This document shows positions 36,953-63,821 of a stretch of 64,000 nt of DNA, one piece after another. This stretch comes from a bacterium. GTDB lineage: Bacteria > SAR324 > XYD2-FULL-50-16. A program made the position numbers and the translations under genes. A model generated the notes under the pieces. The model searched no databases. It was not told the DNA's origin and worked only from the letters and a program-made list of their open reading frames with translations. The DNA lies in assembly GCA_024275165.1 (NCBI GenBank), contig JAJRZQ010000037.1, forward strand, positions 1 through 64,000, read 5' to 3'. Position 1 is the stretch's first letter; every line of letters starts with the position of its first letter.

Positions 36953-38875
36953 TTGCGTATATTTTTGCTGCTTTGTTTTTTCTTTTGCCTCCTCCCCCAA
37001 TCTATATTTGCGGGCAATCTACAAAGTTTTGAGGTCTTGGTGGATGAAGCAAACCGCTTCACCCCTCAAGAGGTCTTTGCCGCTCGGGATCATTTCCAAA
37101 AATGGACCGGCAATTAATTCAACAAGGGATACAGCCAGGCCACCTACTGGATTCGTATCCACTTAAGCCAAACCTCAAAGCGACCTCAATTCTTACTGCA
37201 AAGGCATTGGTATATTACCGAGATGGAACTCTACGCGGAAGGGGCCGAAGGCTTAACCCTGTTGCACCGCGTGGGCAGCGTTACCCCCATCAGCCAGCGC
37301 CCCTATCCCGCGGGGGAGATCATCTTTCCCCTTCCCCAAACCGAGGCGGGCACGCAGACCTATATCCTCAAGGCAAAAAGCCAGCAATTAATGGAGGTGA
37401 GCCTAGCCCACCTCGACCTTGCCGAATTGGGGGAGTACAGGGCGCAAGAAAAACTTTACCTCGGCTTAGCGACCGGTGTTTTTGGGGTCATGTTCTTTTA
37501 CAACCTGTTCATTTACCTCATCTTAAAAAAACGGGCCTATTTTTACTACCTCGCTTACCTGCTGTTGGTGTATCTCTTTTATTTCGTTCATTTTGGTTAT
37601 GCCCGCTACTACCTCTGGCCGGAAGTGACCGAATGGGTGCTATGGTCCATCAACATTCCTTTATTGTTTGCCCTCATGGCGGCAACGCAATATACGCGCT
37701 ACTGCCTATTGACGGCGCAGTACCTCCCCCAATGGGACCGAAGATTAAAAACCTTAAGCCGCGTGGCCCCCTTCTTTTTACTGACCATTGCCACCGGGGT
37801 TCCCGCGCTCTTTGAAATCTCGACCGAGCTTTTGGTTTTGGCGAGTTTGATCCTCTTCTTTTTTATTGGCCTGCAAAGTTGGAAGCAAGGGTATCAACCG
37901 GCGCTTTATTATGTTTTAGGTTGGTCCGTACTAGGTTTATTCGGCTCTTTGCGTATCCTCAGCGCTTTGGGCTGGTACCCCCTCACCCCTTTTATCGAGC
38001 GCGCCTTTGTTTATGGCAGTTTTTTCGAGATGGTCTTTTTCTCCCTCGCCTTGGCAAGCCAGATCCAGCAGCACCGCAAAATCGCCTTGGAGGGAGAACA
38101 AAAAATCGCCCAGATGCACCAAGAGCAAGCCACTAAGTTAGAGCAACGAGTCAAGGAGGCAACCCAAGAACTCATGGCGGCAAATCACGAAAAAACCCGC
38201 TTCTTATCTTTAATCTCCCACGATCTCAAAGACCCGGTCGGCACCCTAGCCGTGCTGTTGCGCACCCTGCAAACCTCCCCGGAGGAGGCCAAACCCAAAC
38301 TGCTCAAGCAAGCGGCGCAAATGGCCGAACGGGTTCACCAACTGCTTTTAAATCTTTTAACCTGGGCAAAAAGTCAATCGGGCAGCTTAAAACCTCAACC
38401 GGAACAACACCCTTTAATCCCTCTCTTAGCTGAAGTACTCACCTTAATGGGGCAAGAAGCCAAGCAAAAGCAGGTTCGGCTCAAACCGAATATTCCCCTA
38501 GAGGCAAGTGTCTACGCCGATGCCCCCATGCTGATCACCCTGGTTCGAAATCTCTTGGCCAACGCCTTAAAGTACTCTTCTGCCGGACAGGTGATTTTCT
38601 TTAACGCGCTGCACAAGGGCAATCAAATCCGCTTAGAAGTCAAAGATCAAGGCATCGGAATGGACGAGCGCACCTTGGCAAACCTGTTTCGGCTCGGGGA
38701 GCAACATCGCAGCCCAACAAGCCCCGAGGGGGAGATGGGTAGCGGCTTGGGCCTGCTTTTAGTCAAGGAATTCGCGGAAAAAAACCAGGGCCGCGTTGGG
38801 GTAACCAGCAAGCTGGGTCAGGGCTCTTGTTTTTGGGTTGAATTGCCCGCGACCCCGCCCCAAAGGGAAACCTAA
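36953..38875 (+). pseudogene. 7TM-DISM-type sensor histidine kinase interrupted by in-frame TAA (37115-37117)
   Basis: Frame 2: LRIFLLLCFFFCLLPQSIFAGNLQSFEVLVDEANRFTPQEVFAARDHFQKWTGN*FNKGYSQATYWIRIHLSQ...; then 7TM and HisKA/HATPase (FLSLISHDLKDPVGTLAVLL, GSGLGLLLVKEFAE). Confidence 0.75.
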
Positions 38876-38900: not shown

Positions 38901-39059
38901 TTAAGGAACCTCTGAAAAACTCCCTCCTGGGAGTTTTTCAGTCTTTTCGGTTGTGAATGAAACCCACAACCTCAACGCGAATCAATAAGTCGCGTTTTTT
39001 GATTTGGCAAGGCATCCCTGCCTTGCTGAGAAACGCCGCGTTTTTCAGAGTTTCCTTAA
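38901..39059 (-). repeat. MITE-like repeat, copy 1
   Basis: Ends TTAAGGAACCTCTGAAAAACTC...GCGTTTTTCAGAGTTTCCTTAA; reverse complement roughly 90% identical by eye to 60714-60841 over about 128 bp. Confidence 0.85.
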
Positions 39060-60713: not shown

Positions 60714-60933
60714 TTAGGGAAACTCTGAAAAACGCGGAGTTTCCCAGCAAGGCAGGAATGCCGTGCCAAATCAAAAAGCGCGACTTATTGATTCGCGTTG
60801 GGATTGTGGATTTCATTCCCCACCGAAAAGACCGAAAAACTTGACGCGCCCCAGGGGCTATAATCAGCCCGAAGGGCATGAGCCTACCGCTTGAACAAGC
60901 GGTAGGCAAGGAGGAGTTTTCAGAGGATCCTTA
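60714..60933 (+). repeat. MITE-like repeat, copy 2 (with extra internal hairpins)
   Basis: TTAGGGAAACTCTGAAAAACGCGG...GAGTTTTCAGAGGATCCTTA; matches reverse complement of 38901-39059. Confidence 0.85.
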
Positions 60934-60935
60934 GA

Positions 60936-63821
60936 TCAACTGCATCCCTGGCTGGCTCCACAGGTAATGCAGACATAACAGGTTCCGGTACGCAAGAAGT
61001 CGCTGCCGCCGCATTCCCCGCAAGGGTGATGATCACTCGTCCGCTCGGCCTTATCGGGCTCAAACTTGGGCGCGTTGACCGGCTGGGGCATGGTAAACTT
61101 CGGGGTATGGGGCCGTAAGGGCTCGGGCTTGTCACTGGGTTGCACCTGTAAAAAATCGGTACGGCCCAGGTAGTGGTGCCCTAAAACCCGAAAGATCGCG
61201 TCAATCAAACTGGTCGCGCTTTTTAAGAAAGGATGCCCACTCACCATGCCGTGCGGCTCAAACTTGGTAAAGGTAAAGCGGTCAACCAGTTTTTCTAGGG
61301 GAACCCCATGCTGGAGACTGAACGAAACGCTGATGGCAAACTGATTCATCAAGGCCCGAACCGTACCCCCTTCCTTATAACCCAAATCAACGAAGATTTC
61401 CCCCAAAGAGCCGTCTTCGTTTTCGCCGCTGCGCAAAAATATTTTGGTTCCCGCTACCTTGAACTCCCAAGTACGGCCAATGCGTACATCGGGCAGTTTG
61501 CGCGAAGAGCCCCAGGCACGAATTTCCACCGTGCCGGCACCCCGTTCCTCCAAGGCGCGTTCCAAGCGGGCGTTTTCTTTCCGCAAGGCCTCAATCGTAG
61601 CTCTTTCATCTAAGGTCGCCTCTTCATCTTGTTTCGCGTTTAAGGGTTGGCTCCCCTTAGAGCCATCGCGATAAATAGCCACCGCCTTCAGTCCGAGCTT
61701 CCAGGACTCCATATAGACCTTGTGGATATCGGGTACCGTCGCCTCCTGAGGCATGTTGATGGTTTTTGAAATCGCTCCTGACAAAAAGGGCTGGGTGACC
61801 GCCATCATCTTCACATGACCCATGGGGTCGATCAAGCGCTCCCCATGGCCGGAAGGAATAGCGCAATCAAAGATCGCCAGATGCTCAGCCTTCAAACCCG
61901 GAGCCCCTTCAATCGTCTGTTTCTCGGTGACGAACGCGCTGATCGCCTTCACCTCTTCAAGGCTGTAACCAAGCTTGTTCAAGACCGCGGGAACCGATTG
62001 ATTCACCATGGGAATCACCCCTCCCCCAGAGAGCTTTTTCCACATGACCAGGCTAAAGGCAGGTTCTACCCCGGTGGTGGAACAATCCATCAAAAGGCCA
62101 ATGGTGCCGGTCGGGGCCAAGACCGTGGTCTGGGCGTTGCGATAACCCTGTCGCTTTCCCTTCAGCAAGGCGGCATCCCAGATCTCGCGGGCCTTTTCTT
62201 TTAAAGGGGCCAAGGCGGGCGCCCGCTCTTCTAAGGCGAAGTCTTCTCGTTCGATTGCCTCGCGGTGTTTTTGCATGACCCGCAGCATGGGCTCTTTGTT
62301 TTTTTCGTATTGGACAAAAGGCCCTTTGGCCTCGGCCAGTTCCGCGCTCATTTCATAAGCCGAACCGGTCATGATGGCGGTCACCATTCCGGCAAGGGCT
62401 CGCCCCTCCTCGCTGTCATAGGGGTAGCCCATCATCATCAACAGGGTGCCCAAATTGGCGTAACCTAAACCCAAGGGGCGGAACTCGTGACTGTTGCGGG
62501 TGATTTTTTCCGTGGGATAACTGGCGAGATCCACCAAAATCTCTTGAGCGGTTAAAAAGAGTCGGCAAGCCTTGCGGTAATCCTCGATTTGAAATTCCCC
62601 CTTTTGATAAAACTTCACCAAATTCAAACTGGCTAAGTTGCAGGCCGTATCGTCTACAAACATGAACTCGCTGCAGGGGTTGGAAGCGCGAATGGGGGCC
62701 GAGGCCGAACAGGTGTGCCAGTCGTTGATGGTCGTATCATATTGTACCCCTGGGTCGGCGCAGGCCCAAGTGGCTTCGCAAATCTTTTGGAACAGGTCTC
62801 GGGCCTTGTAGGTCTTATAGGGCTCGTGGTTGACCCGGTTGAGGGTTTGCCAATCGCCGTCGGCTTCCACGGCCGCCAAAAACTCGTCGCTCAGGCGCAC
62901 GCTGTTGTTGCTGTTCTGCCCTGAAACCGTGGCGTAGGCCTCGCCGTTAAAGTCGGGGTCATAACCCTGGGCCACCAAGGCGCGCACCTTTTCTTCTTCT
63001 TTGACCTTCCACTCAATGAAGTCTTCCACTTCAGGGTGGTCGATATCCAAGCAGCGCATCACCGCGGCCCGGCGGGTGGTCCCCCCTGATTTAATCGCCC
63101 CTGCCGCCGCGTCCAACACCTTTAGAAAGCTCAACAGCCCACTCGATTGCCCCCCGCCGGAAAGCCGCTCATTCACCCCCCGCAAACGGCTCATGTTGGA
63201 GCCCGTGCCACTGCCGTATTTAAAGAGACGGGCCTCGTTTTTAACGAGGTCGAAAATCGAAGAGAGGGTATCGTCTACCGATTGGATAAAACAAGCCGAG
63301 CCCTGAGGCCGCGCGTACTGGTTTTGAATCGCTTCGTATTGATCTCCCTCTTTCCAGGCGAAGTTTTCCCCGCTGCCGCTGATCCCGTATTCGTGGTAGA
63401 GACCGACATTAAACCATACGGGACTATTAAAGGCGCCGTATTGGTGCAGGCAAAGCCATTTTAAGTCATTTTCAAAGGTAAGCGCGTCGTCATCGCTGTC
63501 GAAATATCCCTCCTCGCGGCCCCGGTCGGCAATGGTGCGGCAAACCCGATGAATCAACTGCCTTACACTGGTCTCCCTCCCCTCAACGCCCGGCACCCCG
63601 GCTTTTCTAAAGTACTTGCTCGCTACGATATCGGTGGCCAACTGGCTCCAAAAAGAGGGCACCTCGACCTGCTTCATCTCAAAAATCACTTCCCCGGTGC
63701 TGCTGGTGATCTTGGATTCTCTTTTTTCATACTGAACCGTATCCCAGACCTCTGGAGTTTCTGGGGTCGCCTTGAAAAACTGGGGCGCGAATTTCAGGTT
63801 TTTAGCGTTAGGCTTATTCAT
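60936..63821 (-). CDS. nrdJ: Vitamin B12-dependent ribonucleotide reductase (class II)
   Basis: SACFIQSVDDTLSSIFDL, SNPCSEFMFVDDTACNLASLNL, TVLAPTGTIGLLMDCSTTGVEP; C-terminal CGECGGSDFLRTGTCYVCITCG. Confidence 0.97.
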   Translation of the reverse strand: MNKPNAKNLKFAPQFFKATPETPEVWDTVQYEKRESKITSSTGEVIFEMKQVEVPSFWSQLATDIVASKYFRKAGVPGVEGRETSVRQLIHRVCRTIADRGREEGYFDSDDDALTFENDLKWLCLHQYGAFNSPVWFNVGLYHEYGISGSGENFAWKEGDQYEAIQNQYARPQGSACFIQSVDDTLSSIFDLVKNEARLFKYGSGTGSNMSRLRGVNERLSGGGQSSGLLSFLKVLDAAAGAIKSGGTTRRAAVMRCLDIDHPEVEDFIEWKVKEEEKVRALVAQGYDPDFNGEAYATVSGQNSNNSVRLSDEFLAAVEADGDWQTLNRVNHEPYKTYKARDLFQKICEATWACADPGVQYDTTINDWHTCSASAPIRASNPCSEFMFVDDTACNLASLNLVKFYQKGEFQIEDYRKACRLFLTAQEILVDLASYPTEKITRNSHEFRPLGLGYANLGTLLMMMGYPYDSEEGRALAGMVTAIMTGSAYEMSAELAEAKGPFVQYEKNKEPMLRVMQKHREAIEREDFALEERAPALAPLKEKAREIWDAALLKGKRQGYRNAQTTVLAPTGTIGLLMDCSTTGVEPAFSLVMWKKLSGGGVIPMVNQSVPAVLNKLGYSLEEVKAISAFVTEKQTIEGAPGLKAEHLAIFDCAIPSGHGERLIDPMGHVKMMAVTQPFLSGAISKTINMPQEATVPDIHKVYMESWKLGLKAVAIYRDGSKGSQPLNAKQDEEATLDERATIEALRKENARLERALEERGAGTVEIRAWGSSRKLPDVRIGRTWEFKVAGTKIFLRSGENEDGSLGEIFVDLGYKEGGTVRALMNQFAISVSFSLQHGVPLEKLVDRFTFTKFEPHGMVSGHPFLKSATSLIDAIFRVLGHHYLGRTDFLQVQPSDKPEPLRPHTPKFTMPQPVNAPKFEPDKAERTSDHHPCGECGGSDFLRTGTCYVCITCGASQGCS

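Follow-up and report, generated by a model that had tools for sequence, protein, structure and literature searches.

MITEs whose terminal inverted repeats (TIRs) are those of the IS5 family have been described in bacteria, namely BrickBuilt in Porphyromonas gingivalis and the ISNme1-related ATR elements in Neisseria (PMC4596501), and Correia, RUP, BOX, SPRITE and QMITE are further prokaryotic MITEs that reach high copy number (review PMC10969869). In the window, by which is meant the whole stretch of 64,000 nucleotides that was analysed, two copies were found of a family of about 100 members, which are genuine MITEs of this well-known type with a probable IS5-type source, now in ruins. At full length the element measures about 211 bp, it is non-coding with no ORF, and its A and B TIRs start with GGAA(A/C)CTCTGAAAAA. 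It shares with BrickBuilt and ATR the lack of coding sequence, TIRs matching the IS5 family, multiple intergenic copies and little internal similarity to an IS (PMC4596501). On the other hand, the TIRs of BrickBuilt and ATR are of the GAGACC type, and BrickBuilt carries a minisatellite and irregular duplications whereas the present family has a constant duplication of 4 bp and an interior made of serial hairpins (PMC4596501). Like the reviewed MITEs, it consists of dispersed intergenic miniature inverted repeats that are sometimes located within other repeats (PMC10969869); relation in sequence was checked by an Rfam scan of the window only, which gave no match. As to the IS5 family itself (NF033581 transpos_IS5_4 / PF05598), the N-terminus of a remnant transposase matches it, the element begins with GG and the duplications come near to YTAR. 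Unlike IS5, the MITE has no ORF and its target is looser, including also TATA, TAAA and TTTA.

The first copy in the window follows the gene for a 7TM-sensor histidine kinase (37223-38875) at a distance of 29 nt from the stop codon, and the next predicted gene lies 71 nt beyond the copy. Its features are the following:

38905..39055, + strand: MITE copy 1, short (151-bp) subfamily, B end first, from sequence comparison
38901..38904, no strand: left target site duplication TTAA of copy 1, from TSD statistics
39056..39059, no strand: right target site duplication TTAA of copy 1, from TSD statistics
38905..38923, + strand: B-end terminal inverted repeat of copy 1, GGAACCTCTGAAAAACTCC
39038..39055, - strand: A-end terminal inverted repeat of copy 1, GGAAACTCTGAAAAACGC
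38912..38941, + strand: B-end hairpin of copy 1, CTGAAAAACTCCC/GGGAGTTTTTCAG, terminator-like on the + strand
38949..38971, + strand: hairpin of copy 1, GGTTGTG/CACAACC
38974..38996, + strand: hairpin of copy 1, AACGCGA/TCGCGTT
39007..39026, + strand: hairpin of copy 1, GCAAGGCA/TGCCTTGC

An earlier note on this DNA had described a 159-bp element with TIRs and serial hairpins at 38901-39059. The hairpins that it named are present there and the interval is real, its ends (38901-38920 and 39040-39059) being 95% complementary, but only the 151-bp core belongs to the element proper, which reads GGAACC...TTTCC with a perfect TTAA on each side. TTAA, taken in that note for a possible target site within the ends, is thus located outside the element, where it forms the 4-bp duplication, and among the various T(T/A)(A/T)A-like targets it is the one met with most often. 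A 160-nt stretch holding copy 1 folds with -69.4 kcal/mol vs -35.0 in shuffles (z -8.1), and the folding far exceeds shuffles on both strands. Relative to the full form, copy 1 is devoid of about 60 bp of the B-end hairpin interior; three other short copies of the same genome are 91-92% identical to it.

The end of the second copy lies 5 nt from the stop codon of the gene for a class II ribonucleotide reductase (60936-63821, - strand). A SAR324 cluster genome and two Deltaproteobacteria MAGs are among the best named matches of this enzyme (66-68%). Copy 2 has the following features:

60718..60930, - strand: MITE copy 2, full-length form of 213 bp, A end at 60718 and B end at 60930
60714..60717, no strand: left target site duplication TTAG of copy 2
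60931..60934, no strand: right target site duplication TTAG of copy 2, adjoining the ribonucleotide reductase stop codon

This copy had been recognized previously at 60714-60841. It does exist, but its full length reaches 60930, and the earlier alignment stopped at the point where the short and full forms diverge.

The genome, that of an uncultured bacterium, comprises 2.69 Mb in 47 contigs (designated C below, C29 being that of the window). Copy 1 gives at least 40 strong matches in it, and the TIR pattern, one mismatch being allowed at most, was found 144 times genome-wide vs 0 for a reversed control. From the stretches fetched round the sites, at least 103 MITE places were recognized, 85 of them with both ends mapped and totalling about 13.5 kb. 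The earlier note had reckoned with the case of only two copies, which would have suggested a chance segmental duplication; the genome in fact has at least 100 sites, a figure that is a lower bound. Among the 85 mapped copies, about 54 measure 209-213 bp, nine 150-175 bp and a few 44-57 bp, and a further class is made of fourteen copies of exactly 27 bp each. Full-length copies (n=55) diverge by 3-12% from their consensus.

Exact 4-bp duplications flank 46 of these 85 copies, vs 10.1 expected and a maximum of 20 in 10,000 shuffles. The 39 others have no exact duplication, 20 of them being off by one base, and duplications of 5 bp or longer gave no signal in the flanks of the mapped copies. The commonest targets are TTAA, TAAA, TTTA, CTAA, TATA and TTAG, and half of the exact duplications (23/46) are TTAA, CTAA or TTAG. 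Members of the IS5 subgroup produce 4-bp YTAR target duplications, a habit with which those of the MITE agree.

The comparison with empty sites, also proposed beforehand, could be made within the genome owing to three MITEs that interrupt an unrelated dispersed repeat. Two of them, C3:13717-13743 with 27 bp and C41:10677-10887 with 211 bp, have one and the same TATA as their site, close to an end of this repeat, and its uninterrupted copies, which read CAGGAACGATATACACGCCGGATTAATAA, represent the empty site. The third, at C3:13271-13481, is inserted at a TATA at the repeat's other end, and on its far side the similarity of the flank to the repeat is weak. Membership among the MITEs is supported by direct observation of short, non-coding elements at high copy number with precise TIRs, a fixed 4-bp duplication and empty sites in the same genome, and by the IS remnants treated next. 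As for the second repeat (CCACTGGGGTCTGGGGCTTTTCAGCCCCAGCC...GGCGCCGGATTAAT), it gave 25 matches, including C29:167587-167817 and about 24 other places. It has inverted ends resembling ATTAATCCGGCG...TATA, is often found at contig ends and several times adjoins a MITE copy; it is probably another MITE or a longer repeat breaking the assembly. At C16:53937-54190, a MITE is fused to it within a shared GCCCTGGGGGCGC, with one half of each left.

The window had been correctly reported to contain no transposase. A candidate is located 103 kb beyond it on the same contig, in a truncated IS (C29:166982-167489) whose left end reads CTAA followed by GGAGGCTCTGAAAAGTTCC. Its ORF has an IS5-type N-terminus, with 67 bits for DUF772 (PF05598) and 96 bits for the IS5 family NF033581, the latter falling short of the curated threshold of 140, which the truncation of the protein would lead one to expect. 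A second copy of this IS (C29:104754-104958) is reduced to 205 bp by an internal deletion and has kept both ends (GGAGCCTCTGAAAAATACTCC...TTTTCAGAGATTCC). The two copies are 88% identical over 193 bp and their homology begins at the TIR, so that the end of the IS is defined independently of the MITE. The MITE TIR GGAACCTCTGAAAAA and the TIR of the deletion copy are the same but for one base in 15, and it is in the ends only that the IS remnants and the MITEs are alike, with 15/19 and 14/15 bases of the left TIR in common. No intact transposase with matching ends was found in the assembly, which is 98% complete, and the suggested search for a transposase with matching TIRs yielded only the two remnants. 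Another IS5-like element, with which contig C46 ends, was rejected as parent, its ends GAGACCTCTGCA being of a different type. This 891-bp IS5-family element (L097:1929-2819) has a broken frame and the contig stops exactly at the element end.

Taken together, these data argue for a family of MITEs cross-mobilised by an element of the IS5 type that no longer functions, a reading to which we give a probability of roughly 0.92. A cut-and-paste transposase of the IS5 type would have acted in trans on the MITE TIRs, and each insertion would have duplicated its 4-bp target, similar to T(T/A)(A/T)A. The copies, the TIRs, the duplications, the empty sites, the IS remnants with matching ends and the mosaic deletion junctions described below were all observed in this genome, and we infer that the transposase came from the IS found here rather than from a lost relative. 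Since all that persists of this source is a truncated remnant and a copy cut down to 205 bp by internal deletion, the MITEs can probably no longer move.

The classes of 151, 57, 44 and 27 bp may have arisen by internal deletions between short direct repeats in the element. Full copies contain CGGAGTTTCC in their interior, at 18-27 of the A end, and CAGAGGTTCC at the terminus of the far end. These are imperfect direct repeats of the form C(G/A)GAG(T/G)TTCC, and a deletion from the one to the other would leave exactly 27 bp. The 27-bp copies mix the variable bases of both repeats differently, giving at least three mosaics, and this speaks for deletions that recurred independently and against the spread of one 27-bp founder. 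Judging from the sequence, the 44-bp forms would fit a deletion between two GTTTTTCAG repeats and the 57-bp forms a deletion between short matches around GGCA. Alternatively, the 27-bp copies, which amount to about two overlapping 8-bp ends, could themselves be mobile and have spread as a class of their own enriched in divergent promoter regions. Half of them (7/14) are located between divergent genes vs 15/66 long copies, a difference (p 0.05) that is not robust, and enrichment of the deletion forms in promoter regions was rejected; such mobility seems unlikely.

Gene context was derived from a home-made codon-usage gene finder run on the stretches fetched round the sites. The copies are intergenic, save one doubtful overlap with a predicted gene, and are distributed in 44 tandem, 29 convergent and 24 divergent gaps. 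In the tandem gaps, 34 of the 44 copies are closer to the upstream stop than to the downstream start, and copy 1 carries two terminator-like hairpins on the + strand vs 0.4 expected, as could be anticipated if the element were kept at gene 3' ends as a transcription terminator or mRNA-stabilising hairpin in the manner of SPRITE. However, 24 copies lie between divergent genes, and strand-specific placement after genes was rejected, orientation downstream of genes being random (33:23, p 0.23). Of two copies scanned for a GC stem followed by a T run, the short copy 1 has such a site but copy 2, of full length like most of the family, has none. Compensatory changes, sought in 70 pairs across 55 copies, affected a single pair, below the level of shuffles, and covariation of the hairpins was likewise rejected; one loop shows linked variants (Fisher p 0.005), for which relatedness can account.

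In about 15 insertions, roughly 15-18%, a stop codon is located within the duplicated target or touches it, while stop codons account for about 14% of the tetramers in the window that are permitted as targets. Since this frequency is about that predicted from the target motifs, homing to stop codons was rejected, and stop-codon proximity can be ascribed to target preference together with selection against gene damage. This provides a simple reason for the siting: a T(T/A)(A/T)A target often holds a stop that the duplication restores, and a functional role at 3' ends need not be assumed. The tabulation of copies relative to gene 3' ends, suggested in the earlier note, thus confirms their nearness to the upstream stop but, given the random orientation and the target, does not sustain for the family the function as terminator or mRNA stabiliser put forward there, which we regard as quite improbable. 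A possible terminator role holds out only for the short subfamily of copy 1, with its terminator-like hairpin, and a regulatory role for single copies is possible. In four genes (C13:26260, C16:173355, C41:65151 and C42:9309), the predicted TGA stop falls 9-11 nt inside a MITE copy, and the protein end is altered by a few residues vs the joined empty site.

The high copy number, the intergenic palindromes and the size of the 27-bp and 44-bp forms would also suit palindromes of the REP kind disseminated by a RAYT (Y1 HuH) enzyme, but an exact 4-bp duplication is enriched here and the genome contains an IS5-type remnant of the DDE class whose TIRs match. REPs are, to our knowledge, devoid of target duplications, and this origin is highly improbable. 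That two intergenic regions are alike by segmental duplication or chance has practically no likelihood in view of at least 100 dispersed copies with precise common ends and duplications.

Returning to the cross-mobilised MITE family, copies were also sought elsewhere, as had been advised. The search of 57 genomes of relatives, none of the same genus, gave no MITE match and no multi-copy family, the TIR matches numbering 0-4 per genome with totals somewhat above the reversed control; the exact core is absent from GTDB genomes and viral contigs, and plasmids and phages gave no MITE match. These elements add a high-copy MITE family from a poorly studied lineage, probably SAR324-related to judge from the ribonucleotide reductase matches, in which one genome keeps several steps of MITE birth and decay, from the IS remnant and the internally deleted IS to the full MITE and its recurrent deletion to 44 and 27 bp. 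Finally, a second MITE subfamily with the same ends and another interior (TTGATCACC(C/A)AACAAATCAATTCACTTTG) was observed at C16:97115, C16:63818-63967 and C30:47620-47773.
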